Made by a program: the position numbers and the translations under genes
The notes under the pieces: generated by a model
What the model was told of the DNA's origin: nothing
Database searches by the model: none
Seen by the model: the letters and a program-made list of their open reading frames with translations, nothing else
In this document: positions 1,507 through 43,388 of the stretch, piece by piece
Layout of the letters: each line of letters begins with the position of its first letter
Position numbering within the stretch: the stretch's first letter is position 1
Source of the DNA: an uncultured Bacilli bacterium
GTDB lineage: Bacteria > Bacillota_I > Bacilli_A > RF39 > UBA660
Reading direction: 5' to 3'
Length of the DNA: 49,554 bases
Assembly: GCA_944351765.1 (NCBI GenBank)
Contig: CALVPR010000004.1
Span: 1-49,554, forward strand

Positions 1507-2293
1507 TTCTTTCTATAACCTCCTTTGCTAAATTAAGATATGCAAGTGTCCCTCTACTTCTTGGTTCATACTCTAATATAGGTTTACCATGAGATGGGGC
1601 TTCTGCTAACCTTATTAATCTTGGTATAATAGTATCATATACTCTTTCTTTAAAGAAATTTCTTATACTCTCAATAACTTCTAATCCTAAATTAGTATTA
1701 GCCGTCAACATTGTCAATAAAACTCCTTCTATGTCTAAATTAGGATTTACTTTTTTCTGTGCAAGCATTATTGTATTTATAAGTTGCATTATCCCTTCTA
1801 ATGCAAAATATTCACATTGCACAGGTATTAATACCGAATCTGCTGCCGCTAATGCATTAGTTGTTAAAATACCTAATGATGGAGGGCAATCTATAATAAT
1901 AAAATCAAAGTTATTTTTTATTTTATCTAATTCTTCTTTTAATCTAGTTACTCTATTAAAATGTTCATTTCTTTCTTTATATTCTCTTTCTAATTCGACA
2001 AGTTCCATATCAACACCTGCTAAATTCAAATATGCCGGTATCAAACTTAAATTTTTACTTTTTGTCTTAACAATTGCTTCATTTACAGAACATTTCTTTA
2101 CTAAAACTTCATATATACTGTTTTTTATGTCACCTCTTTCTAAACCTACACCCGTAGTGGCATTGCCTTGAGGATCTAAATCTACTAATAATATCTTCTT
2201 TTTTAATATACCAAGAGAAGCAGATAAATTAATGCTTGTAGTCGTTTTTCCTACTCCACCTTTTTGATTTACTATTGCAATTATCTTTCCCAT
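1478..2293 (-). CDS. parA: Chromosome-partitioning ATPase ParA (Soj)
   Basis: A 271-residue deviant-Walker ATPase that binds DNA nonspecifically and is released by ParB. The motif KGGVGKTTT lies at residues 11-19, the signature DLDPQGNATTG near 40-50, and the Walker B stretch IIIDCPPS near residue 136. The start ATG has AAGGTGA just upstream. It forms a two-gene operon with the overlapping parB. In B. subtilis this pair follows rsmG; here it is on the opposite flank of the origin, beyond ftsH and tilS. Confidence 0.96.
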   Translation of the reverse strand: MGKIIAIVNQKGGVGKTTTSINLSASLGILKKKILLVDLDPQGNATTGVGLERGDIKNSIYEVLVKKCSVNEAIVKTKSKNLSLIPAYLNLAGVDMELVELEREYKERNEHFNRVTRLKEELDKIKNNFDFIIIDCPPSLGILTTNALAAADSVLIPVQCEYFALEGIMQLINTIMLAQKKVNPNLDIEGVLLTMLTANTNLGLEVIESIRNFFKERVYDTIIPRLIRLAEAPSHGKPILEYEPRSRGTLAYLNLAKEVIERNGTKEESVR

Positions 2294-2366
2294 ACATTCA
2301 CCTTATTCCTACATTAACTATTTTATCAAATTTTAATAAAAAAAGAAAGATTATATCTATTTTTTA

Positions 2367-3440
2367 TTATCTTGTTTTGTTTAAAGAATTAGCATAAACA
2401 TTATTTATAGCAACTGTATATTCTTTTCCATTCATATCTTTATATTGTAATAAATTATCTTCTTGTGATAAATAAGATAGAACATGTTCTACATATTCAG
2501 TATCACCAGGCAAATTTTCTCTATGATTAATCCAATCTTCCCCATATTCTTTTTTTAAATTTATCACGTTAGTTCCCGAATTATAAGTTTGCAAACTTGC
2601 AATTATATCATAATCACAATATACTAAATCAGATGCCATTATCATACAAGCTACTTTTGTGTTATAATCTAAATCTGCTAACATATTTACATCAATAACA
2701 CCATCTTCATTTTGACATACAACAATAGTTTCCATTTGCTGTGTTTCAAAATTATATGCCGAAACTGATTTCCCTACCCAATTCCAACTACCTTCAACCT
2801 GTATTTGAAAGAGTCCAAATCCTCCTCCTTGAGAAACTTCTGTACTATGAGTTCCCCTTTCTTGTGTTCCTACCGCTAACATCAAATTACTAGGAAGTCC
2901 ATACATATTAGAATATTTTGTAACTACATCAGTATATAAACATCTAGCCAAATTTGCTTTATCACTACTAGATCTATCTTCATATTCAAAATTAAAAATA
3001 CTATCAGGTATAATTATATTTTCTTCCATTTCCATATTAGGACTTAATTTATCATCATTCATTACACTAAATGTTTCTTTATTATTAGTAGAAACAACTT
3101 CTTTATCATTACAAAATAACCCTATGGAATTTAATGTTAAAAGCAATATTAAAGAACCACTTAATGCTAAAGTTGTACCAACATATTTATTTTTTCTATT
3201 TACCATTTTCTTAATTTTAGGCCTATTTTTCCTTACTTGCAAAAATAATTTTTGACTTACACCATAATATCTTAAAGTTTTTATATCATTTACCAATAAT
3301 TCACGATAATTATAATTATTTTTAACTAATATTCTAAAAAATAGTTTTGCTTCTTCAATAGATAACTTTATTTTTTTACCATTATAAACTGTGGTACATA
3401 CAATTTCATTTTCTATGATTTGAAAATCAATGTAATCCAT
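2367..3440 (-). CDS. Membrane-anchored lytic transglycosylase-like protein (SLT fold)
   Basis: 357 residues. The N-terminal 85 are cytoplasmic-looking and basic at the end, one transmembrane helix spans about 87-109, then a linker leads to a C-terminal lysozyme-like domain (about 165-320). SLT features are visible: YGLPSNLMLAV, then TQERG with E194 as likely catalytic acid, then GGGFGLFQIQ, and TYNSG near 285-289. It should cleave peptidoglycan glycan strands outside the cell, perhaps in growth, division or sporulation. The start codon overlaps the preceding stop (TAATG), implying translational coupling with the DUF1292 gene. The soluble N-terminal domain is not one I recognise. Confidence 0.75.
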   Translation of the reverse strand: MDYIDFQIIENEIVCTTVYNGKKIKLSIEEAKLFFRILVKNNYNYRELLVNDIKTLRYYGVSQKLFLQVRKNRPKIKKMVNRKNKYVGTTLALSGSLILLLTLNSIGLFCNDKEVVSTNNKETFSVMNDDKLSPNMEMEENIIIPDSIFNFEYEDRSSSDKANLARCLYTDVVTKYSNMYGLPSNLMLAVGTQERGTHSTEVSQGGGFGLFQIQVEGSWNWVGKSVSAYNFETQQMETIVVCQNEDGVIDVNMLADLDYNTKVACMIMASDLVYCDYDIIASLQTYNSGTNVINLKKEYGEDWINHRENLPGDTEYVEHVLSYLSQEDNLLQYKDMNGKEYTVAINNVYANSLNKTR

Positions 3441-24226: not shown

Positions 24227-25900
24227 CTATTTATATTCAATCATTTCTTCTCCAACTAAATCTATTAATTGATCAACTGCAGTCTTTTCAATCTTTAAAA
24301 GATTTAATGTTGATTCTTTTTCTTCACTAACGTAATTATATTTATATCCTTTTTTTACATTTGATATATATCTATTTCTTTCCTCTTCCCACTCTTTAGT
24401 AGATATTGCTATTATGGAATAATTTTTTTCATATATTATATTTAATAATTGTTCAATAATAGTTAAATTATTATTTATCCTAATTGCAGAAGCATCATAT
24501 TTAGACACTAATATCATATTTTGTTCTCCAACTACCATTGGAACAGTATCAGCTAACAAACCAGCGGCCAATTTAAAATCATCATCCAAAACATAGTCAA
24601 AAATAGTACTCCACTTTATTTTAACATCATTTAAAAAAGTTTTAGATGCTGTCGAAAAAGAATTATTTATTCTAATTTGTTTAAATTTTTTATAATCTAT
24701 ATTATTTTCTGATTTAGTAATTATTTCCCGGGAAATATTTTTTTCTTCTTTTCTTTCTAATTTTTCATCCATACTATTACTTGGTTCAATAGCCGCATGA
24801 AAAGTATTTTCTTTATCATTCTCTTTATTTTCTAAAAATTCAATTGTTTTCAAAAGATTAACCAATAATAATATAGAAGGATAACTAGCAACTTTAATTG
24901 TATTTAATAATTCATTTAAGTTATTTATCATAAAATATATCAAAATATCATCAAAACATTTTGAAATTTCTTCTAATATTTCGTTTTTTTCTTGTATTTT
25001 TGTTTTTTGTTTACTATTTTTATAAATTAATACATCTTTTAAGAAAATTAACATTTCTTCAATAAATTTTGAAATATTTTTCCCTGATCTATCAAACTCA
25101 TTTACCAAATCAATTATATTTTTTCTATCACCATTTTTTATATCAATAAGCAATTGGTAAAGATTTTTATAAGAAACAGAACCATTAACTTTATATACAT
25201 CATCTAATGTAATTAGATCATTTTTATATGCAGTTAATTGATCTAATAAATTAATAGCATCCCTTAAACCTCCATCAGATAACCTAGCTATTTCGTACAA
25301 AGCATCATCTTTTATTAAAATTTCTTCTTTCAAACAAATTTGCTTCAAACGTTTCACTATTTCTTCATCATCTATTTTATTAAATTGAAATTTTTGACAT
25401 CTCGATGAAACTGTTAAAGGAACTTTATAAGGCTCTGTAGTAGCTAAAATAAAAATGACATGTTTAGGAGGTTCTTCTAAAGTTTTCAATAAAGCATTAA
25501 ATGCTTGTGTTGTAAGCATATGTACTTCATCTATTATATATACCTTATATTTACTATTAGTAGGAACTAAATTTACTTTATCCCTTAATTCCCTAATTTC
25601 TTCTACACCATTATTTGACGCAGCATCTATTTCCACTATATCGTTACTTACGGAAAAATTAATACAATTTTCACATATCCCACAAGGCATACCATTTTTT
25701 ATATTTTTGCAATTCACCATTTTTGCTATTATTTTTGCTGTAGTAGTCTTTCCTGTTCCCCTAGGTCCAGAAAACAAATAGGCATGAGATATTCTTCCAT
25801 TAACAATAGCAGAATTTATAACTTTGACAACTTTATCTTGACCAACTAATTCATCAAAATTGCTTGGTCTATATTTACGATACAAAGCTAAATAACTCAT
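24227..25900 (-). CDS. dnaX: DNA polymerase III subunits gamma/tau
   Basis: 557 residues, the ATPase core of the clamp loader. Walker A GPRGTGKTT lies near 45-53, a zinc module CGICENC follows, Walker B IIDEVHML, and sensor 1 ATTEP. After about residue 365 the sequence becomes variable and lysine-rich. This linker contains an exact Noc-type palindrome (24723-24736), encoding part of N-I-S-R-E-I. GAGGTGAGAA precedes the ATG. First gene of the dnaX-to-pth operon. I did not establish whether a frameshift produces a short gamma form. Confidence 0.96.
   Translation of the reverse strand: MSYLALYRKYRPSNFDELVGQDKVVKVINSAIVNGRISHAYLFSGPRGTGKTTTAKIIAKMVNCKNIKNGMPCGICENCINFSVSNDIVEIDAASNNGVEEIRELRDKVNLVPTNSKYKVYIIDEVHMLTTQAFNALLKTLEEPPKHVIFILATTEPYKVPLTVSSRCQKFQFNKIDDEEIVKRLKQICLKEEILIKDDALYEIARLSDGGLRDAINLLDQLTAYKNDLITLDDVYKVNGSVSYKNLYQLLIDIKNGDRKNIIDLVNEFDRSGKNISKFIEEMLIFLKDVLIYKNSKQKTKIQEKNEILEEISKCFDDILIYFMINNLNELLNTIKVASYPSILLLVNLLKTIEFLENKENDKENTFHAAIEPSNSMDEKLERKEEKNISREIITKSENNIDYKKFKQIRINNSFSTASKTFLNDVKIKWSTIFDYVLDDDFKLAAGLLADTVPMVVGEQNMILVSKYDASAIRINNNLTIIEQLLNIIYEKNYSIIAISTKEWEEERNRYISNVKKGYKYNYVSEEKESTLNLLKIEKTAVDQLIDLVGEEMIEYK
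24723..24736. promoter_or_regulatory. Noc-binding-type palindrome inside dnaX
   Basis: ATTTCCCGGGAAAT, identical to the Noc-binding consensus known from B. subtilis. It lies in the variable linker of dnaX, where coding constraint is low. Confidence 0.65.
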
Positions 25901-26377: not shown

Positions 26378-26390
26378 TTTCTTCTATCCT

Positions 26391-26472
26391 TCAAAAAAAG
26401 ACGCACACAATAACAAAATGTTAGAGCTGCTGTTTTCCAACCCTGACTCGTTTCCACCATTATTGTTGCGTC
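26391..26472 (-). ncRNA. ffs: Signal recognition particle RNA, short (4.5S) type
   Basis: A minus-strand RNA of about 73 nt (26472 to 26400) that folds into one long hairpin: the ends GACGCA/TGCGTC pair, followed by ACAATAA/TTATTGT. The apical part contains GTCAGGG, a GGAA tetraloop and CAGCAGC, the conserved Ffh-binding helix 8 with its symmetric loop. A T-run follows at 26391-26399. There is no room for an Alu domain. It occupies the tadA neighbourhood, where B. subtilis also has its SRP RNA (scr), though there the gene lies between tadA and dnaX and the RNA is the long form. Confidence 0.92.
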
Positions 26473-26478
26473 ATAGTA

Positions 26479-26507
26479 ATTATAACATTCATTAAAAAAA
26501 ATGTAAA
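26479..26507 (-). promoter_or_regulatory. Promoter of the SRP RNA gene
   Basis: TTTACA (26502-26507) and TATAAT (26479-26484), 17 bp apart on the minus strand. The first stem base (26472) is 7 nt downstream of the -10 box, the expected start site. Confidence 0.75.
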
Positions 26508-26587
26508 CGTATTATAAAAAACACAAGTTACTTTTTTTATTAATAGTAAATATGTATCTTATTGTACTTTCTTGCCACACATCGGCA

Positions 26588-26603
26588 TGTTTCACGTGGA
26601 ACA
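26588..26603. promoter_or_regulatory. parS site 1
   Basis: TGTTTCACGTGGAACA, the consensus ParB-binding palindrome of Bacillota (one central-arm asymmetry, as in many natural sites). Confidence 0.9.
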
Positions 26604-26750
26604 CAAATACTTTTCGTTATTAATAATCAATATACATTTTATTATACCCCTTTGATGCTTCTCTTCAACTTTTTTCACTTAAAAACGCAAACGCTTTTTT
26701 ATTAACAATAAACATGTATTTTGTTATGTTTTTTTTGCAACATATTAGCA

Positions 26751-26766
26751 TGTTTCACGTGGAACA
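26751..26766. promoter_or_regulatory. parS site 2
   Basis: Identical 16-bp sequence to site 1, in the second repeat unit. Confidence 0.9.
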
Positions 26767-26913
26767 CAAGTTAATTTTCGTTATTAATAATCAATATATG
26801 TTTCATTATGCCTTTTACTGCTTATCTTCAACTTTTTTTACTTAAAAACACAAACGCTTTTTTATTAACAATAAATATGTATTTTATTATACTTTTTTCA
26901 CCACATATTGGCA

Positions 26914-26929
26914 TGTTTCACGTGGAACA
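26914..26929. promoter_or_regulatory. parS site 3
   Basis: Identical 16-bp sequence to site 1, in the third repeat unit. Confidence 0.9.
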
Positions 26930-27069
26930 CGAGTTAATTTTCGTTATTGATAATTAATATGTGTTCCATTATACCTTTTACTACTTCTTTTTAACTTAAA
27001 AACACAAGTGCATTTTTTTATCAACAACAAATATGTATCTTATTATACTTTTTTTACCACATATTGGAA

Positions 27070-27085
27070 TGTTTCACGTGGAACG
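27070..27085. promoter_or_regulatory. parS site 4
   Basis: Same sequence with a single change at the last base (A to G), in the fourth, shortened repeat unit. Confidence 0.85.
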
Positions 27086-27170
27086 CAAAAGATGTCGTAA
27101 ATAAAATATAAATATTTAAAATTTGTATTTTGTATAGTATTTAGTATAATTTAAATTTATTTAAATGTTT

Positions 27171-27206
27171 ATATAAAAAATATTTCCCGGGAAATATTTT
27201 TTATAT
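27171..27206. promoter_or_regulatory. 36-bp perfect palindrome with a Noc-type core
   Basis: The core ATTTCCCGGGAAAT (27182-27195) is extended by AT arms into a perfect 36-bp inverted repeat. It lies between the parS array and gyrA in gene-free DNA. It could also fold as a strong hairpin in RNA, but the core matches the Noc-binding consensus exactly. Confidence 0.7.
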
Positions 27207-27317: not shown

Positions 27318-27349
27318 ATGTAAAATATTTCCCGGGAAATATTTTACAT
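27318..27349. promoter_or_regulatory. 32-bp perfect palindrome with a Noc-type core
   Basis: The core ATTTCCCGGGAAAT (27327-27340) is extended by different AT arms to 32 bp. It is the second copy in the gyrA-proximal half of the intergenic segment. The rest of 27096-27483 is plain AT-rich DNA in which I see nothing else. Confidence 0.7.
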
Positions 27350-27475: not shown

Positions 27476-27504
27476 TATAAAAAAAGAAAACTATTAATTT
27501 TCTT
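27476..27504 (-). terminator. Terminator of gyrB-gyrA
   Basis: Stem AAGAAAA (27484-27490) / TTTTCTT (27498-27504) at the gyrA stop, followed by a seven-T run on the minus strand. Confidence 0.6.
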
Positions 27505-29923
27505 CGTTTTCCTTTTTAATAATCGCAACTGAACTAACAGATTGTTCTTCTTTTAAATTAATCAATCTTACTCCTTGAGTAACACGACTCATTTTAGAAA
27601 TGTTATCTACAGATAATCTTATTATCATTCCAGTATTTGTACTAATTATAACATCAACATTATCATTAACAGTTTTAAATGAGATTATAGAACCATTTTT
27701 ATCTGTTATATGTAGAGTTTTTACACCTTTACCACCACGATTAGTTAATCTATATTCTTGAAGAGGAGTCTTTTTTCCATATCCCTTTTCTGTAACTATT
27801 AATACATCTTGATTGTCATTAGCTATTTCCATTCCTACTAAATATCCATCATCTAAATTAATTCCTCTTACTCCTGAAGCTGATCTTCCCATTATTCTAA
27901 TGGAATTTTCATTAAATCTTACCATTCTACCATTTGAAGAAGCCATTAAAATTTCATTTTCCCCTGTTGTTTTTTTAACCGAAATTAACTCATCATCATC
28001 TCTTAAAGTTATAAATTTTTTACCATTCGTACGAATGCTATCAAATTCTTTTATATCGGTGCGCTTAATGAACCCAAATTTAGTAGCAAATACTAAATAT
28101 TTGTTTTCGTCTTCTTTTTCAACTTTCAATAGCGATGTTATTTTTTCTCCTTTTTCTAATGACAATAAATTAATTATAGGAATTCCTTTTGATTGTCTAC
28201 TATATTCAGGTATTTCATATCCTTTAGTTCTATATACTTTTCCATTATTTGTAAAGAATAAAATATAGTCGTGCGTTGTTAAGTTAATTATGCTCTCTAC
28301 AAAATCTTCTTCATTCATAGTCATTCCTTTTATACCTACTCCGCCTCTATTTTGAGTTTTATAAGTACTAGATAACATTCTCTTTATATATCCTTTATTA
28401 GTTAAGGTTATTACAATATTTTCTTCTGGGATTAAAGCTTCATCTTCAATATAATCTATAGCAGTCATATCAATATGTGTTCTTCTTTCATCCTCATATT
28501 TTGCTTTTATTTCCAATAATTCATCTTTAATTACTTGTAAAATTCTCTCCTCACTAGAAAGTATTTCTTCTAGTTCTTTAATTAAAGCTTCTAATTCAGC
28601 AATTTCATTTTCTATTTTTTCTTTTTCTAATCCGGTTAATCTTCTTAACTTCATTTCTAAAATTGCTTGTGTTTGAGCTTCAGAAAGACCAAATCTTGCA
28701 ATTAATTCTTTACTTGCTTCTTCGTCAGTTTTTGCGGATTTTATAATCTGAATTACTTCATCTATATGATCTAATGCAATTTTTAATCCCTCTAAAATAT
28801 GTAATCTTGCTTTATATTTATTTAAATCAAATTGACATCTTCTATATATTACTTGCTTTTGATGATCCAAGTATTTTTCTAAAATAGTTTTTAAATCTAA
28901 TGTTCTAGGACTACCATCGACTAGCATTAAAAAATTTATTCCATACGAAATTTGTAGTTGAGTATGTTTATATAAATTATTTAATACAACATTGGCATTA
29001 GCTTCTTTCTTTACATCAATTACAATTTTGATTCCTTCTAATGCTGATTCATCGTTTAAATTAGATATACCATCTAAAACTTTATCTCTAACTAATTCAG
29101 CAATTCTAGTAATCAAAGCTTTTTTATTTACTTGATAAGGAAGTTCCGTAATTATTATTCTATTTCTTCCATTATGTTCTTCGATATCAACTTTGGCGCG
29201 TACTGTAATAGTACCTCTACCTGTTTCATAAGCTCTTTTTATACCACTATTTCCTAAAATAATTCCTCCAGTTGGAAAATCTGGTCCTTTAATTTTTTCC
29301 ATTAAATCTAGTACTGTAATATCAGGATTATCTATATACGCAATACAACCATCTATTACCTCTCCTAAATTATGAGGGGGAATATTTGTAGCCATACCTA
29401 CAGCAATTCCCATATTACCATTAACTAAAATATTAGGAAATCTACTAGGTAAAACTACAGGTTCTTTTCTTTGACCATCATAGTTTTCCATAAAATCAAC
29501 AGTTTCTTTATTTAAATCTCTCAACATTTCCATTGATATTTTTGCAAGTTTAGCCTCAGTATAACGAGATGCTGCAGCGGAATCACCATCTATACTACCA
29601 AAATTACCATGTCCATCAACTAAAGCATGTCTATAGGTAAAATCTTGAGCCATTCTTACCATAGTATCGTAAATAGCAGCATCACCATGTGGGTGATAAT
29701 GTCCCATTACTGCTCCTACAGCGTTAGCACTTTTTTGATGCTTTTTATCAGGTGTCATTCCTTCCTCATATAAAGTATACAAAATACGTCTATGAACAGG
29801 TTTTAAACCATCTCTTACATCTGGAATTGCTCTAGCTACAATAACGCTCATAGAATAGTCTAAAAATGATGTTTTCATTTCATCTATAATGTTAATACTT
29901 ACTTTTTTGTCATTATCGTTCAT
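27494..29923 (-). CDS. gyrA: DNA gyrase subunit A
   Basis: 809 residues. This is the breakage-reunion subunit that, with GyrB, introduces negative supercoils. The catalytic tyrosine is Y121 in AASRYTEAKL; the C-terminal half holds the beta-pinwheel, with a GyrA-box-like TQNRGGVGIKG near residue 530. In the quinolone pocket HPHGDAAIYD, the residue equivalent to E. coli Ser83 is Ala82, while Asp86 is kept. It lies 11 bp behind gyrB in one operon, next to the parS array. Confidence 0.97.
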   Translation of the reverse strand: MNDNDKKVSINIIDEMKTSFLDYSMSVIVARAIPDVRDGLKPVHRRILYTLYEEGMTPDKKHQKSANAVGAVMGHYHPHGDAAIYDTMVRMAQDFTYRHALVDGHGNFGSIDGDSAAASRYTEAKLAKISMEMLRDLNKETVDFMENYDGQRKEPVVLPSRFPNILVNGNMGIAVGMATNIPPHNLGEVIDGCIAYIDNPDITVLDLMEKIKGPDFPTGGIILGNSGIKRAYETGRGTITVRAKVDIEEHNGRNRIIITELPYQVNKKALITRIAELVRDKVLDGISNLNDESALEGIKIVIDVKKEANANVVLNNLYKHTQLQISYGINFLMLVDGSPRTLDLKTILEKYLDHQKQVIYRRCQFDLNKYKARLHILEGLKIALDHIDEVIQIIKSAKTDEEASKELIARFGLSEAQTQAILEMKLRRLTGLEKEKIENEIAELEALIKELEEILSSEERILQVIKDELLEIKAKYEDERRTHIDMTAIDYIEDEALIPEENIVITLTNKGYIKRMLSSTYKTQNRGGVGIKGMTMNEEDFVESIINLTTHDYILFFTNNGKVYRTKGYEIPEYSRQSKGIPIINLLSLEKGEKITSLLKVEKEDENKYLVFATKFGFIKRTDIKEFDSIRTNGKKFITLRDDDELISVKKTTGENEILMASSNGRMVRFNENSIRIMGRSASGVRGINLDDGYLVGMEIANDNQDVLIVTEKGYGKKTPLQEYRLTNRGGKGVKTLHITDKNGSIISFKTVNDNVDVIISTNTGMIIRLSVDNISKMSRVTQGVRLINLKEEQSVSSVAIIKKENEEN

Positions 29924-31874: not shown

Positions 31875-31898
31875 AAATTATTTCCCGGGAAATAATTT
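31875..31898. promoter_or_regulatory. 24-bp palindrome with a Noc-type core at the recF stop codon
   Basis: The core ATTTCCCGGGAAAT (31880-31893) extends to a perfect 24-bp inverted repeat. It encodes the last recF codons (K-L-F-P-G-K-stop) in the frame, so one sequence serves as coding end and as protein-binding palindrome. Confidence 0.65.
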
Positions 31899-33069: not shown

Positions 33070-33108
33070 AAAAAAGTGCAAAAAATCCTTTAATTTTGCA
33101 CTTTTTTT
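33070..33108 (-). terminator. Terminator of the comK-like gene
   Basis: A long stem pairing AAAAGTGCAAAA with TTTTGCACTTTT encloses the stop codon in its loop and is followed by a T-rich tract. Confidence 0.75.
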
Positions 33109-33542
33109 GATATTTTTTCAAGCATTTTATCCAAAATAAAACATTTTGAAACTTGTGAAGATATAATACTATAATTTACGGGAACTATAATAGTACTTCC
33201 ATCAAAAAACACTAATATTGTGTTATGTTTTTTTCTTAAAAAAGTAACTAAATTATTATAAGAAATCCAGGTATTTTCTTTTGATGTAATAGATTTAATA
33301 GGAAAAAATATAATTTTATTTTCATTATCTACTATAATTGGATTTTTATAATTACTTTTAAATACCTTTTTACTTTCTTCTACTCTATAATTTAAGGAAT
33401 ATCTATAATAACTACAAGAATCACTAATAATAGTAGCCGGATCTTCTTTTTTATTTAAGCTTTTTCCTTTTTCAATAATTTTTGTCATATTTTTATCTTC
33501 AGTTTTTATGACATATGTATTTTTGTTTATTGTATATCTCAT
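33090..33542 (-). CDS. comK: ComK-like competence transcription factor
   Basis: 150 residues from the ATG at 33542, preceded by AAGGGGGGATAAAA. Core ComK features are visible: ISDSCSYYRYSLNYRVEESK, then NPIIVDNENKIIFFP, and a TWISYNNLVTF-like segment matching SWIAHSYV of B. subtilis ComK; the C-terminal domain ends earlier than in B. subtilis (192 residues). ComK activates DNA-uptake genes. It has its own terminator and lies between dnaN and recF, where yaaA (S4 domain) usually sits. An AAAA-N5-TTTT element is present upstream, but such runs are common in this DNA. Confidence 0.75.
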   Translation of the reverse strand: MRYTINKNTYVIKTEDKNMTKIIEKGKSLNKKEDPATIISDSCSYYRYSLNYRVEESKKVFKSNYKNPIIVDNENKIIFFPIKSITSKENTWISYNNLVTFLRKKHNTILVFFDGSTIIVPVNYSIISSQVSKCFILDKMLEKISKKVQN

Positions 33543-33640
33543 TTTTATCCCCCCTTCAAAAATACAATTTTTATTAGAACACAAATTGGTGTCGAATTTT
33601 GTCAAATTATGTCACAAATTTTAATTTTTTTAAATTAATA

Positions 33641-34800: not shown

Positions 34801-34944
34801 CTTTTATTATATATATTGTTATTATTATACTGTGGAAACTGTGGAAAACTAGCTCAAACCCTTATATTTATAGTATTATTTATCCACAGGGTTGTTGATA
34901 AATAATACACTTATCCACATATATCCACAATTTAAGTGGATAAG
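34801..34944. other. oriC, dnaA-dnaN side: DnaA boxes and candidate unwinding site
   Basis: Two exact TTATCCACA boxes (34880-34888 and 34911-34919), a one-mismatch ATATCCACA (34921-34929), and on the minus strand TTTTCCACA and GTTTCCACA (34840-34848 and 34831-34839). Right after the last two, the minus strand continues GTATAATAATAACAATATAT, which looks like a run of TAA-type DnaA-trios in AT-rich DNA. This is the arrangement of the basal unwinding system of B. subtilis, so 34801-34830 is the likely melting region. Confidence 0.7.
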
Positions 34945-36361: not shown

Positions 36362-36590
36362 TCAACATACTTTTCCACAACTTTTCCACAGGTTTTCCAC
36401 AACATATTGTCTTATAATATATAGATTTTAATAAGTTTTCCACAATTTTTATTATTTTTTATTTTCCACAACAAAAAAAACAAGTTTTCCACAGGTTGTG
36501 GATTTGTGTGGAAACTGTGGAAAACTTATTAAACAGCGTAAAATCAATAACAAAAATTTAAAATTTTCCACAATTAACTGTGGAAATAAA
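36362..36590. other. oriC, dnaA upstream side: cluster of TTTTCCACA DnaA boxes
   Basis: No gene here. Seven forward TTTTCCACA boxes begin at 36371, 36382, 36393, 36436, 36462, 36485 and 36564. Reverse-oriented copies lie at 36507-36515 (GTTTCCACA), 36516-36524 (TTTTCCACA) and 36579-36587 (ATTTCCACA). The first three forward boxes are spaced 11 bp, one helical turn. With the dnaA-dnaN boxes this makes a bipartite origin like that of B. subtilis; autoregulation of dnaA is likely. Confidence 0.8.
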
Positions 36591-36615: not shown

Positions 36616-38373
36616 TTATTGTTGATTCCATTCTATCATCCATTTGTCATATACAGAAGCATTAGAACTATGTGGTTCAGGATTAGGTAATTCCATTTTT
36701 ACAATCATTGGAATTTTCATCATTTTTCCAAAAGCAACACATGTACCTGATTGTAATGCTTTTTGTTTTTCAATTACATCAGAAGAAATATTAGGCACCA
36801 TCTTTCTTATGTATTCTAAATCAGTTGGATGATTAATTTTAAAAATTAAAAAATTACTACATTGAGAAATAACTGTTTCAGATAATTCTGTGGGACGTTG
36901 TGTAATTAAGTCAATTACTAATCCAAATTTTCTACCTTCTTTAGCAATTCTTTCAAAAATATTATATCCAAGCAATTCGTTATCAGAATCTTTTTGAACA
37001 TATCTATGTGCTTCTTCTAACATAACATGAATTGGTATTGATCCTCTATCTGGTAAATATTTTGAAAATTTAAATAATAGTCGAGAATAAATTTTTACAA
37101 GTGCTTTAGCAAATCTATCATCTATATCTTCTAAAACAAAGTTAATTATTTGTGCCCTTTTAGTATTACTTACTAGTATTAAATCTGAAATAAATTCATT
37201 TAAGCTTATGAACTTTTCGTATTTAAAGAAGTTACTATTGGAACTATTATTTAAAGTATGTAATCTAACTTTTAATGCTGTTGCTTCAGCGTAAGACTTT
37301 TCATTTAACAATAATCCTTCTGAAATTAATGCGAAGTTTAATGCAACTTCTAAATCATCCAAAGTGAAATACACTGGAACAAAGTCTTCATTCCATTTAG
37401 TATCATTATCCAAAAATTGTTGAATATATTCTGTAATTAAAATTCTCTCAACAAATTCTCCTTTACTATCTAAATCAAAACATTTTCTAAATTGTCTTGT
37501 ATACCCTACTCCAGGAACTTCTACATCGAGATTTAATTCTTTGGTATAACAATCTGTTAAAATAGAAAAAATTTGGTCTCTTATTTTTGCGGAAACTTGA
37601 TTAGAATACATAACAGAAATAATAGCTTTTGCAATTAAATGATTCTTATATCTTAAACTTTCATCATCATTTCTAGCAAATACAGAAACAAGACTTAACA
37701 TCTTTTCTATAATAGCAATTTGAGAATATGCTGTTACATCAAGTAAATTTGCATAATCATCTACACTAAGTAACCATAATGGTAATTTAACCAAAGGTGC
37801 ATCTTTTTGTTCTGTGTTAGTTGTGTATATTTTATAATTAAAATTAACATTAATATTATTAATATTTTTAAAAGCATTATCGTACTCACTTGTATTATTA
37901 AAAATAAAAATATTGCTATTAAAGGGAATTTTATCTTTCATAACAAATAAATTTTGTATTAGTCTTGCAACACCATATGTTTTTCCAGAACCAGTATTAC
38001 CAAAAATAGCACTATGATTAGAAAACATATCATCAATATCAATTCTTACTGGATAGTTATACAAGGGAGAAATTCCCAACATCATACTTTTAGGATTTGT
38101 GTCCCCTACTAATTCTCCCAATTCTTCTTTGTTAATAATTCTAACTTTTGCTTTTAAACTAGGTTTTCTAATTGTTCCAGAAAAAAATTTACCATCAATA
38201 AATTCACCTAAAAAAGTAATTTTAGCAGAATTATCACTTATTCCTTCAATTTCACCTAAAATTTTTTTATCATCTTCAAAAACAACATTATAATTTAATA
38301 AATCATCAGCAATATTTCCTTCAATTTTTACAAGCGCATAATTTTTGCTAATTTCTATAATTTCATTAAACAT
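36616..38373 (-). CDS. HerA/DUF87-type hexameric ATPase (DNA translocase-like)
   Basis: 585 residues. The N-terminal HAS-barrel-like region (1-120) is followed by Walker A GNTGSGKTYG near 130-139, a long insert, and Walker B MLEEAHRYV near 480, then RKFGLVIDLITQRPTELS and SQCSNFLIFK, as in HerA translocases. In archaea HerA pairs with NurA in end resection; in bacteria related ATPases occur in defence and partition contexts. No nurA-like or other partner is adjacent. It is a single gene between the dnaA boxes and yukD, divergent from the type VII genes. The role here is unknown. Confidence 0.8.
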   Translation of the reverse strand: MFNEIIEISKNYALVKIEGNIADDLLNYNVVFEDDKKILGEIEGISDNSAKITFLGEFIDGKFFSGTIRKPSLKAKVRIINKEELGELVGDTNPKSMMLGISPLYNYPVRIDIDDMFSNHSAIFGNTGSGKTYGVARLIQNLFVMKDKIPFNSNIFIFNNTSEYDNAFKNINNINVNFNYKIYTTNTEQKDAPLVKLPLWLLSVDDYANLLDVTAYSQIAIIEKMLSLVSVFARNDDESLRYKNHLIAKAIISVMYSNQVSAKIRDQIFSILTDCYTKELNLDVEVPGVGYTRQFRKCFDLDSKGEFVERILITEYIQQFLDNDTKWNEDFVPVYFTLDDLEVALNFALISEGLLLNEKSYAEATALKVRLHTLNNSSNSNFFKYEKFISLNEFISDLILVSNTKRAQIINFVLEDIDDRFAKALVKIYSRLLFKFSKYLPDRGSIPIHVMLEEAHRYVQKDSDNELLGYNIFERIAKEGRKFGLVIDLITQRPTELSETVISQCSNFLIFKINHPTDLEYIRKMVPNISSDVIEKQKALQSGTCVAFGKMMKIPMIVKMELPNPEPHSSNASVYDKWMIEWNQQ

Positions 38374-38771: not shown

Positions 38772-41700
38772 ATGAGAGTATCATTGATTAAAAACAATAA
38801 AATTAATAATATTACATTACCAAATGATCCTTCAGGAATTTATTGGATTACTGATTTTGATGAAGATGGACATGAACAAAATTTAATTTGTATTGAAGCA
38901 CGTGAAAAAAATTGGTTTTTAATTAGTAATGAAGAATATAGTTATGTAGAAAACAACATGATAAAACCTTATGTTATGTTATCTCCTTATAATTTGTATG
39001 TAGTAAAGTCAAAAATTGAAGATAAAATGATTTTAATATATTGTTCTCCAATTTTTGATGATACATTAAAAGCATATAACTTACTTGATAAAAATGAAGT
39101 TTCAATTGGAAGAAATAATGATAATGATATTGTTTATAATAATTCTTTAGTTAATGAATATCATGCTAAATTAATAATTGATAAAGAAAAAGGAAATATA
39201 GAAATACATGATAATAGCAGCAATATGGGTACTTTTATTAACAATGTTAGAGTAAATAAAATTTCTTCTGTAGAAAGTGGAGATTTAATTTTTATAATGG
39301 GATTAAAAATAATAATATCAAAACTTGATAAAGACTATGTTATTATGTTTAATAATCCTAACAATTTAGTAAATAGTAAATTTACTCTTTTTAACATTCA
39401 ATCAAATAAAGAAGAAGAGTATAAAGAAGAACAAGAAGAATTAGATATTCCTTTGTATGTTGAAGAAGATTATTTTCATAGAACTCCAAGATTTACCCAA
39501 AAAATAGAAGATTACAAAGTTAATATAGATCCGCCACCAAATAAACAAGAAATAAAAGATATGCCATTATTATTAACGATAGGCCCTATGCTTACCATGT
39601 CAATGATGTCCTTAGTTATGATGTATAGTTCTTTAAATAATGTAATGAACAATGGTGGCAGTCTTTCTAATGCATTGCCATCTCTAGTTATGAGTGGTGC
39701 TATGTTTGCTAGCGTGTTTTTATGGCCAACATTAATGAGAAAGTATGAAAAAAAGAGAAGAGAACAGGAAGAAAAGTTAAGACAGACTAAATATAGCAAA
39801 TATATAGAAGATAAAAAGTTGGATATTAATAATGAACTAGTAAGACAATCAGCAATTTTAAAAAATCAATTTCCTACAACAACAGAATGTCAACAAATTA
39901 TTTTACAAAAATTAACAAGACTTTGGGAAAGAAGAATTGGTGATGAGGATTTTTCAGTAATTAATGCTGGAAATGGTACTTCAAAGATGAAAATAGAACT
40001 GAAATATCCGGAAGAACATTTTACTATGCAAGAAGATAATTTAATGAAATTAGTAACTAGTTTAGGTAAATCAGAAAAAAATATAAATAATGTTCCAGTT
40101 GCAATTTCTTTAATTGAACATAAAATTTTTGGTGTAATAGGAAATAGAAAAATTAGATTTGATTTTTCTAATCAAATTTTATTGCAATTGGCAACTTTTC
40201 ATAGTTATGATAATATGAAATTTGTAATTTTAACTAATAATGAAAATAGTGATTTTTGGGAACATATAAAAATACTTCCTCATAATTGGAATAATAATAA
40301 AACATTTAGGTATTTTGGAGTAAATATAAATGAATATAAAGAAATCTTTTATATTTTAGAAAAAATATATAATGATAGAAAAGAAAAGAAAAAAGAAAAT
40401 AATATAACTTTTAACACAAGATATATAATTATAAATGATTGTTTTAACAACATAAGAAATATAGAGTTTATAAAAAATATATTAAATGAACAAGATGATT
40501 TGGGAATTAGCCTTATTATAATAGATAATAAAATAGTAAATATTCCTGATCAATGTCAAAGTTTTGTTCAGTTAAGTGAAGCGAAGTGTGAATATTTTGA
40601 ATCATTAGTTAACAATAAACCTATTCAATTTGAAATGGACAAAAATTATATAGATTATTTTTCATGTGCAAAAAAATTAGCAAATATTCCAATAAAAATA
40701 ATAAGTAAAACTGAAGGACAATTGCCAGATAAATTGGGATTTTTAGAAATGTATGATGTTGGTAAAATAGAACAATTAAATATAAAAAATAGGTGGGAAA
40801 AAAATAATCCAATTCAATCTCTTGGTGTACCAGTTGGATATAATCAAAATGGTGATAAACTTATAATAGATTTACATGAAAAATATCATGGACCGCATGG
40901 TCTAATAGCAGGAATGACAGGAAGTGGAAAATCGGAATTTTTAATAACATATATATTATCAATGGCTTTAAACTTTCATCCTTATGAAGTACAATTTATT
41001 TTAATAGATTATAAAGGTGGAGGATTAGCAGGAGCTTTTGAAAATGAAATAAGTCATATAAAACTACCGCATTTAGTTGGAACAATTACTAACTTGGATG
41101 CTAATGAAATAAAAAGAAGTTTATCAAGTATAGAAAGTGAGTTGAAAAGAAGGCAAAGAGCATTTAATGAAGCAAGGGAAATTTCTGGAGAAAGTACTAT
41201 AGATATTTACAAATATCAGAAAATGTATAGAGAAGGTATTGTTAAAGAACCAGTTTCTCATTTGTTTATAATAAGTGATGAGTTTGCAGAATTAAAAAAT
41301 CAACAACCAGAATTTATGGTCCAATTAATAAGTACGGCAAGAATAGGACGTAGTTTAGGTGTACATTTAATATTAGCAACTCAAAAACCTAGCGGAGTTG
41401 TGGATCCACAAATATGGAGTAACACAAGATTTAGAGTTTGCTTAAGAGTGCAGGAGAAATCTGATTCTAATGAAGTAATAAAAAGTCCTGATGCAGCATA
41501 TTTAAAACAAACAGGAAGATTTTATTTTCAAGTTGGATTTAATGAAATATATGAATTAGGACAAGCAGCATGGGCAGGAGGTATGTATGTCCCAAGTGAA
41601 AAAAACAAAAAAAATATAAATGATTCAATAGATTTTATAAATAATATTGGTGATATAATAAAAAGTGTAGAAACTAAGAAAAAAGTTGAAAAAACTGCTT

Positions 41701-43388
41701 CGTATGGTGAAGAATTATATAATATAGTAAAGATGCTAAGTGATATAGCAACAGAAGAAAATATAAAATGTAGACAATTATGGCTTCCAAAGATACCAAA
41801 TTATATCACTGTAAATCAGTTAATAGAAAAGTATCCATATGAAAAAGAAAACTTTATAATAAATCCAATAATTGGAGAATATGACGATCCTAATATGCAA
41901 CAACAACATTTATTAACTATCCCAATAAGTAATAAAGGAAATGCTATAGTTTATGGTATATCTGGATCTGGTAAAGAAAATTTTGTTTTAACAATGATTT
42001 ATTCATCAATGTTATATTATTTACCTAGTGAAGTAAATTATTATATAGTAGATTATGGCTCTGAAACATTGAGAATGTTAAAAAATGTTGCTATTGTAGG
42101 AGACATTGTATATCCTGATGAAGAAGAAAAACAAAAAAATTTATTTAAAATGTTAGCAAAAGAAATAGAGAAAAGAAAAAAATTATTTTCTAATTATTCA
42201 GGAAATTATATAAATTATTGTAAAAATAGTGGAAGTACTCTTCCAACTATAATAACTATAATAAATAATTTTGAAGGCTATCAAGAAAGTAATTCAGATA
42301 TAGATGATCCTTTAATAACCTTAAGTAGAGAAGGCTCAAAATATGGAATATATTTTGTTTTAACAACTAATACTCCAAACGGAATAAGATTTAAATTAAA
42401 GCAAAATTTTACACAGGATTTTGTTTTACAACAAGCAAATGATGAAGATTATACAAATATTTTAGGAAATGTTCAAAGAAATTACCCATCAAGATTGTAT
42501 GGAAGAGGTATTATAAAAACAGATAATGTGTATGAATTTCAAACTGCTCAAATATGTAATACTGAAAAAGTTGCAGAAACAATAAATAAATTAGAAGAAT
42601 TATTAGAAAGTAAATATCAAATAAAAGCTCCTAAAATACCTTTATTACCAGAAATAGTAAACTATAATTCGATATCTTCAAAATTTGGAAAAACAAAGGA
42701 ATATATAGTAGGTTTATCAAAGGAAAATTTAGAAATAGTAACTTATAATTTTGAAAAAAACAATATTAATTTAATTATATCTAGTGAAATATCTAATCTT
42801 TCAAATTTTGTAGGTCCTTTAATTAATCAATTTTTGGCATTAAAACAAAAAAAATTATTAGTAATAAATGCTGAAGATATTTATATTGAGGAAGAATATA
42901 AAAAATATTTTGGATATTATGATAAAGATTTTAATAAAATTTTTGAATTATTATATAAAAAAGTAGAAGAAAAATATAATTTATATATAGAAAGTGATTA
43001 CAATAAAAATATAGTAAATGAAGATGAAATTAAAATTTGTATTATAATTGGATTTGAAAGTTTAATGAAGAAATTATCTATAGACAATAAAAATAAATTA
43101 AATAAATTAATGACCAATAATAATGAAATAAGTATTGTAAAATTTATTTTAATTGATTCAGTAGACTCATTTAAAAAACTAGAATATGAAGAATGGTTTA
43201 AAAATGGAACTGATACTTCAAGTGGTATTTGGGTAGGAGAAGGTATTAATGAACAATATACATTAAAAACTACAGAAAAAAATACTGAATTAAAAGAAAA
43301 GATTAATAATGATTATTGTTTTGTAGTTAGAAAAGGAAAATCACAATTAGTAAAATATTTATCAGAATTTAAAATTAATTTAAAATAA
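38772..43388 (+). CDS. essC: Type VII secretion motor ATPase EssC
   Basis: 1538 residues. Order of parts: an N-terminal FHA-like region, with the recognisable FHA domain at about 105-190 (VSIGRNNDNDI, NSSNMGTFINN); two transmembrane helices at about 264-285 and 302-321; and a first FtsK/SpoIIIE ATPase domain with Walker A GMTGSGKSEF at 714-723, then IDYKGGG, FIISDEFAEL and ATQKPSG. The second ATPase domain has GISGSGKEN at 1062-1070, and a third, degenerate domain without a P-loop ends the protein. This is the S. aureus/Bacillus EssC architecture (about 1480 residues there). AGGAGGTAATTAATT precedes the ATG. Substrate and membrane partners are not in the window. Confidence 0.93.
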   Translation: MRVSLIKNNKINNITLPNDPSGIYWITDFDEDGHEQNLICIEAREKNWFLISNEEYSYVENNMIKPYVMLSPYNLYVVKSKIEDKMILIYCSPIFDDTLKAYNLLDKNEVSIGRNNDNDIVYNNSLVNEYHAKLIIDKEKGNIEIHDNSSNMGTFINNVRVNKISSVESGDLIFIMGLKIIISKLDKDYVIMFNNPNNLVNSKFTLFNIQSNKEEEYKEEQEELDIPLYVEEDYFHRTPRFTQKIEDYKVNIDPPPNKQEIKDMPLLLTIGPMLTMSMMSLVMMYSSLNNVMNNGGSLSNALPSLVMSGAMFASVFLWPTLMRKYEKKRREQEEKLRQTKYSKYIEDKKLDINNELVRQSAILKNQFPTTTECQQIILQKLTRLWERRIGDEDFSVINAGNGTSKMKIELKYPEEHFTMQEDNLMKLVTSLGKSEKNINNVPVAISLIEHKIFGVIGNRKIRFDFSNQILLQLATFHSYDNMKFVILTNNENSDFWEHIKILPHNWNNNKTFRYFGVNINEYKEIFYILEKIYNDRKEKKKENNITFNTRYIIINDCFNNIRNIEFIKNILNEQDDLGISLIIIDNKIVNIPDQCQSFVQLSEAKCEYFESLVNNKPIQFEMDKNYIDYFSCAKKLANIPIKIISKTEGQLPDKLGFLEMYDVGKIEQLNIKNRWEKNNPIQSLGVPVGYNQNGDKLIIDLHEKYHGPHGLIAGMTGSGKSEFLITYILSMALNFHPYEVQFILIDYKGGGLAGAFENEISHIKLPHLVGTITNLDANEIKRSLSSIESELKRRQRAFNEAREISGESTIDIYKYQKMYREGIVKEPVSHLFIISDEFAELKNQQPEFMVQLISTARIGRSLGVHLILATQKPSGVVDPQIWSNTRFRVCLRVQEKSDSNEVIKSPDAAYLKQTGRFYFQVGFNEIYELGQAAWAGGMYVPSEKNKKNINDSIDFINNIGDIIKSVETKKKVEKTASYGEELYNIVKMLSDIATEENIKCRQLWLPKIPNYITVNQLIEKYPYEKENFIINPIIGEYDDPNMQQQHLLTIPISNKGNAIVYGISGSGKENFVLTMIYSSMLYYLPSEVNYYIVDYGSETLRMLKNVAIVGDIVYPDEEEKQKNLFKMLAKEIEKRKKLFSNYSGNYINYCKNSGSTLPTIITIINNFEGYQESNSDIDDPLITLSREGSKYGIYFVLTTNTPNGIRFKLKQNFTQDFVLQQANDEDYTNILGNVQRNYPSRLYGRGIIKTDNVYEFQTAQICNTEKVAETINKLEELLESKYQIKAPKIPLLPEIVNYNSISSKFGKTKEYIVGLSKENLEIVTYNFEKNNINLIISSEISNLSNFVGPLINQFLALKQKKLLVINAEDIYIEEEYKKYFGYYDKDFNKIFELLYKKVEEKYNLYIESDYNKNIVNEDEIKICIIIGFESLMKKLSIDNKNKLNKLMTNNNEISIVKFILIDSVDSFKKLEYEEWFKNGTDTSSGIWVGEGINEQYTLKTTEKNTELKEKINNDYCFVVRKGKSQLVKYLSEFKINLK

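Follow-up and report, generated by a model that had tools for sequence, protein, structure and literature searches.

The window analysed here, a 49,554-nucleotide stretch from the draft genome of an uncultured gut bacterium (1.29 Mb in 64 contigs, 92.7% complete), carries, in this order, dnaX, a tadA-like deaminase gene, the small SRP RNA, a tandem array with parS sites, gyrA, gyrB, recF, a ComK-family gene, dnaN, and dnaA (Table 1). Eight DnaA boxes upstream of dnaA, of which the one at 36516 is on the minus strand, mark the inferred oriC, and the GC skew changes sign at about 36–40 kb of the window; together, the skew switch and the DnaA-box cluster place oriC about 9 kb from the array. The ComK-family gene (Pfam PF06338, E 2e-26; 33090–33605) lies between recF and dnaN in a genome that is much reduced. 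Beyond oriC, a gene at 38772–43388 encodes a 1538-aa protein with FHA and FtsK/SpoIIIE domains (type VII secretion EssC-like domains), adjoined by a HerA-like ATPase gene at 36616–38373.

Table 1. Features of the window, with positions counted from its first nucleotide.
Feature	Position	Strand	Basis or remark
ParB, 294 aa, inferred parS reader	622–1506	−	LGRGL motif, recognition residues R,T,R,G
ParA, 271 aa	1478–2293	−	
NBS inside dnaX	24723–24736		Exact motif match
Small SRP RNA	26385–26482	−	Anchor for finding the locus in relatives
Tandem array, seven monomers of ~82 bp (about 3.5 dimeric 163-bp units)	26520–27095		Self-comparison and monomer alignment
parS 1, TGTTTCACGTGGAACA	26588–26603		Motif match, one mismatch to palindromic consensus
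parS 2, TGTTTCACGTGGAACA	26751–26766		Motif match, one mismatch to palindromic consensus
parS 3, TGTTTCACGTGGAACA	26914–26929		Motif match, one mismatch to palindromic consensus
parS 4, TGTTTCACGTGGAACG, ending in G	27070–27085		Motif match, two mismatches to consensus
Perfect 36-bp palindrome with NBS ATTTCCCGGGAAAT at 27182–27195	27171–27206		Self-comparison and motif match
Perfect 32-bp palindrome with NBS ATTTCCCGGGAAAT at 27327–27340	27318–27349		Self-comparison and motif match
gyrA, other flank of the array	27494–29923	−	
NBS at the 3′ end of recF, beside the gyrB start	31880–31893		Exact motif match
Smaller cluster of three DnaA boxes	34840–34919		
Inferred oriC, eight DnaA boxes upstream of dnaA	36371–36572		First box 36371, last 36564

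The parS array and its readers

The initial annotation of this DNA described four parS sites at intervals of 163, 163, and 156 bp, embedded in diverged direct repeats between gyrA and the SRP RNA, and all of this is confirmed. The sites lie at the intervals given, with mismatches counted against the palindromic consensus TGTTTCACGTGAAACA, and self-comparison of the region recovers a 71-bp direct-repeat family at 62–93% as well as a 163-bp pair at 88% identity. At up to three mismatches, the window holds five parS matches, four of which are the array sites; shuffling predicts 0.24, and not one of 100 shuffled windows had as many as five. The odd monomers of the array bear parS and are 72–89% alike; the even monomers carry decayed parS, such as TTTTTTCACTTA, are 69–82% alike, and remain related to the odd ones, with an alignment score of 20.8 against 1.4 (SD 4) for shuffles. 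Because the alternate monomers with decayed parS are still related to the others, the array is a dimeric repeat in which some parS have been lost and others kept. The monomer comparison, in which the spacers drift, agrees with the earlier statement that the cores are conserved although the units have diverged.

Throughout the whole 1.29-Mb draft genome, no parS within one mismatch was found beyond the four array sites, so that the proposal of a compact chromosomal centromere meets no rival parS outside the array. The likeness to a plasmid partition locus, which was also proposed, is not supported: a plasmid-type centromere is rejected on account of the flanking core origin genes (dnaX, tadA, gyrA, gyrB, recF, dnaN, and dnaA) and of the distance of 24 kb that separates parAB (622–2293) from the array, and dense parS clusters are known from chromosomes, as in M. 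xanthus (PMC3899335). The ParB of the window has the marks of a chromosomal ParABS protein, namely recognition residues of the R173/G201 type (RTRG), the GERR CTP motif, and the ParA-binding motif LGRGL, and its best solved match is Spo0J (6sdk). Similarly, the occurrence of four 16-bp parS near the DnaA-box cluster and the skew switch is that of a chromosomal ParABS site.

The genome encodes two ParB-family proteins, the second being a Noc-like paralogue on another contig (C48), with the specificity residues Q,K,N,R, where those of Noc are Q,K,x,R (PMC7383237). It carries the CTP-binding GERR motif, Noc is also its closest relative of known structure (7ng0, E 1e-59), and Q173, K179, and R201 occur in all but one of 43 Noc sequences, 40 of which are from the host family. 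Its best-scoring family is NCBIfam TIGR04285, yet the score of 271 bits is below the curated cut-off of 315. An amphipathic helix anchors Noc to the membrane and is needed for occlusion (PMC4331003); inspected by eye, the Noc sequences of the host family have no apparent N-terminal amphipathic membrane helix, and the source protein starts with MEAGKEVIKVRLSSIIPNRFQPR and begins directly at the clamp domain. Ahead of the C-terminal domain, the host-family proteins have a low-complexity linker of 59–416 aa. In this genus, an SPFH/Band-7 gene (2281–3183 of locus L012) lies directly upstream of noc and might provide an anchor-less Noc with a partner at the membrane; as a general stand-in for the membrane anchor it was rejected, being found beside noc at five of 68 loci, all from this genus.

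Noc-binding sites around the array

The main feature of the locus, the presence of Noc-binding sites (NBS) near parS, was missed by the initial annotation. Four exact copies of ATTTCCCGGGAAAT, the 14-bp consensus core of the NBS, are present in the source genome, as opposed to none of a reversed-pattern control, and all four are in the window, two of them sharing the intergenic gap of the array, between the array and gyrA. The genome beyond the window has no NBS within one mismatch, and relaxing the scan to two mismatches adds only one genomic match; the NBS counts took in sites within one or two mismatches, at which degenerate NBS could be missed. The NBS of the window lie outside the array, on its flanks, rather than among its parS, interleaving being a feature of relatives. 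The NBS is a parS changed at two positions, and its reader is Noc rather than ParB (PMC7383237, PMC7333895).

Across relatives, an NBS at about 1.6–1.76 kb from the SRP RNA (−1650/−1750) recurs in many genera. Single NBS inside coding genes also recur at similar positions across genera, including one at about −6480 from the SRP RNA, the host gene being dnaX in the window and a methyltransferase gene in several relatives. As such recurrent coding-gene NBS are also present in two genomes with no detected Noc, some of them may be kept for coding reasons.

Conservation, turnover, and phasing across the host family

parS is carried by 67 of 70 host-family genomes, and the Noc-like second ParB paralogue was likewise found in 67 of the 70. 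Exact NBS occur in 63 of these genomes, compared with 3 of 47 genomes of other Bacilli, and the reversed-pattern control gave none in either group. A genome that carries NBS has 1–20 of them, packed within about 10 kb. In 33 genomes, the contig extends 8 kb or more to either side of the SRP RNA; here, 139 of 141 parS are located between −2.0 and +2.2 kb of this RNA, and 66 of 72 NBS lie no more than 10 kb from it, a distribution that is not a scatter over the origin half. The initial annotation asked about the array in related genomes; with the loci oriented on the SRP RNA, parS clusters adjoin this RNA in nearly every family genome, in support of the proposed compact centromere. In other Bacilli families, Noc has identical specificity residues, but exact NBS are almost absent; their one-mismatch NBS number 0–8 and are scattered where contigs are long enough.

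The two kinds of site are interleaved in several relatives (G020, G028, G059, G064, L195, L230, L231, and L251), in which NBS alternates with parS inside the tandem units, with one parS and one NBS per repeat unit. A scan for NBS and parS within 32 bp of each other found at least 115 such composite stretches among 84,980 species genomes. Among the matches listed, the titles name MAGs of Bacilli, Tenericutes, and Erysipelotrichaceae type, while a few say only bacterium or Clostridia and one says archaeon, and nearly all readable composite loci among these matches adjoin dnaX, tadA, or gyrA. No report of a combined parS–NBS locus was found in the open-licence papers to which the search was confined.

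The repeat unit itself is not conserved. Unit length, or parS period, ranges from about 28 to 250 bp among genera; for example, by genome, the period is 37–43 bp in G003, G031, and G036, 80 bp in G028, and about 200–350 bp in G020. Within a genus, the spacing and number of parS differ, and in the species nearest to the source, whose gyrA is 92% identical, the array can be aligned only in pieces of ~40 bp, the repeat unit being unshared with congeners. The position of the locus and the type of site persist while the unit does not, and such turnover is what would result if tandem duplication and loss recurred while selection maintained a set of sites. In relatives, draft contigs often stop within a few hundred bp of the SRP RNA, on the side where the array lies (G006, G008, G010, G018, G021, G031, G037, G046, G048, G050, G058, G059, and G069), and with contigs breaking at the array, true array lengths are probably underestimated.

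One genome, G040 (locus L093), has neither canonical parS nor NBS. Its locus instead holds nine copies of TGTTACACGTGTAACA, the only ones in this genome, at 38–1055 bp from the 5′ end of the SRP RNA, and the recognition helices of both ParB-family proteins are altered, that of ParB to GKNRTHITN and that of Noc to GVSVNTIQN, in which Q173 is replaced. The congener G221 carries three ordinary parS there, with no NBS nearby, and NBS would thus be dispensable in some lineages. Within a single genus, the site of the whole array and its readers have altered in concert.

In a first set of loci, an NBS and its neighbouring parS tend to be about 25, 36, 46, 57, or 68 bp apart, measured from centre to centre, in keeping with a 10.5-bp period (z = 12.9, n = 208). 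This test was inflated by repeated copies and by loci shared between two sets; after similar spacers were merged, P was about 0.016–0.04, and the strictest merging left no significance. Since related spacers inflate such a test, it was run again on a second set, taken from 386 family genomes (NBS–parS distances of 29–59 bp), with one pair per genus; the rows of this set were hand-copied, omitting further copies of near-identical units and any pair separated by another site. The distances of the second set peak at 35–37, 45–48, and 57–59 bp, and the genomes absent from the first set, with one random pair per genus, gave n = 36, mean z 7.1, and P = 0.0006. Of these pairs, 76% are in the half-turn window predicted from the first set, versus 52% expected (P = 0.0035), and the phase is the same in both sets. 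The helical phasing of NBS to parS is likely to be real, and it would imply a set rotational relation of the proteins on the two sites, on roughly opposite faces of the helix. Distances from parS to parS have no helical phase (z = 0.33, n = 130). Selection on the spacing of parS, tentatively suggested by the initial annotation, is not supported: neither spacing nor phase carries a signal of it, the periods vary among genera, and the unit is not shared with congeners.

Proposed function, alternatives, and known systems

From the sites, their genome-wide exclusivity, the recognition residues, the conservation, the interleaving, and the likely helical phasing of NBS to parS, all of which can be read in the sequences, we infer binding, clamp loading, ParB–Noc cooperation, and function. 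The locus is probably a composite chromosomal centromere near oriC, fast-evolving, that loads ParB and Noc together. In such a centromere, ParB, assisted by ParA, would load at the parS cluster, and the Noc-family paralogue, encoded elsewhere, would load at the NBS palindromes that lie among the parS or beside them; each protein would form a CTP-dependent clamp and slide outwards along a shared stretch of DNA near the origin. As a second centromere protein, Noc could shape the segregation complex or couple it to replication or division. The arrays would grow or be replaced by tandem duplication, a process in which the repeat unit changes rapidly and the identity, number (usually at least two), and location of the sites are preserved. 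The joint ParB/Noc site clusters by the origin suggest that Noc is a second centromere protein, and the loss of the membrane helix, the gain of a long linker, and the scarcity of sites beyond the origin make a second centromere or origin-region protein its most likely role, rather than that of a nucleoid-occlusion factor acting chromosome-wide. In B. subtilis, Spo0J and Noc cooperate genetically in the timing of Z-ring assembly (PMC6852036), which makes a joint role of ParB and Noc plausible. A more specific form of this reading, held only tentatively and given somewhat less than even chances, is a bipartite centromere in which ParB and anchor-less Noc clamps occupy phased, interleaved sites on fast-turnover, satellite-like arrays and contact or help each other.

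The protein is clearly related to Noc, and other Bacilli families with Noc have scattered one-mismatch NBS, as would suit an ordinary ParABS next to an ordinary Noc that keeps its occlusion function, with strong NBS near the origin by chance and weaker ones scattered. The packing of the NBS within about 10 kb, the single further NBS at up to two mismatches in the source genome, the absence of the membrane helix required for occlusion (PMC4331003), and the phasing of NBS to parS make this explanation unlikely; with the helix absent and the NBS unscattered, classical nucleoid occlusion fits poorly. The NBS also lie about 4–12 kb from the DnaA boxes on the dnaA side, and Noc restrains initiation in S. 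aureus (PMC5540599), so that Noc might act here as a local regulator of replication initiation, with the parS cluster incidental. We consider this improbable, as the NBS track the parS cluster between the SRP RNA and gyrA rather than the DnaA boxes, and as they are both interleaved and in phase with parS. A perfect DnaA box is present in two NBS–parS spacers; most spacers have none, and DnaA boxes were rejected as a feature of these spacers.

Least probable, with very little weight, is a neutral origin for the array, as a tandem duplication or satellite in which parS is present by chance and whose copy number is unselected. Unit and copy number do vary even inside a genus, parS has been lost from alternate monomers, and contigs often break at the array, all of which a neutral satellite would accommodate; nevertheless, most genera, although their units are unrelated, have two or more parS clustered at this one locus, the cores stay intact while their flanks drift, and almost no parS is found elsewhere.

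The composite centromere, if correct, alters the usual view of Bacillota, in which ParB acts at the origin and Noc over much of the chromosome, with separate sites and separate spread, as the large, mostly uncultured family of this gut bacterium would join both systems in one compact locus. Noc would then act at a centromere with no tether to the membrane, its clamps and those of ParB may interact, and the host family would offer a natural series of fast-changing bacterial centromeres. G040 provides a natural example of a joint change in centromere site and reader. The reasons for which parS cluster, and the evolutionary forces behind it, are raised as a question in a review of the field (PMC7333895), and the record of tandem duplication in this family makes that question testable.

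Among known systems, Spo0J–Soj–parS of B. subtilis shares with the locus a ParA, a ParB with a ParA-binding motif, and 16-bp parS near oriC; unlike in other Bacillota ParABS systems, the parS here are few and confined to one intergenic tandem array, with Noc sites mixed in or flanking. Noc–NBS occlusion in B. subtilis and S. aureus shares the NBS core ATTTCCCGGGAAAT, the Q,K,x,R residues, and a GERR-bearing ParB paralogue, whereas the host-family Noc differs in its missing N-terminal amphipathic helix and its long low-complexity linker, and its NBS stay within ~10 kb of the parS cluster, where the known systems have about 40 or more loci spread over the origin half (PMC5540599). M. xanthus also has a dense chromosomal parS cluster near its origin, of 22 sites, carried on a 3.12-kb fragment (PMC3899335). 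It belongs to a different phylum, and Noc sites are not described there. The centromere sopC of the F plasmid consists of 12 repeats of 43 bp; such iteron-like plasmid centromeres are likewise tandem repeats whose units each bear one ParB-type site, and some relatives of the source have units of 38–43 bp, whereas the locus described here is chromosomal, lies between core genes with parAB not adjacent, and has sites for two clamp proteins.
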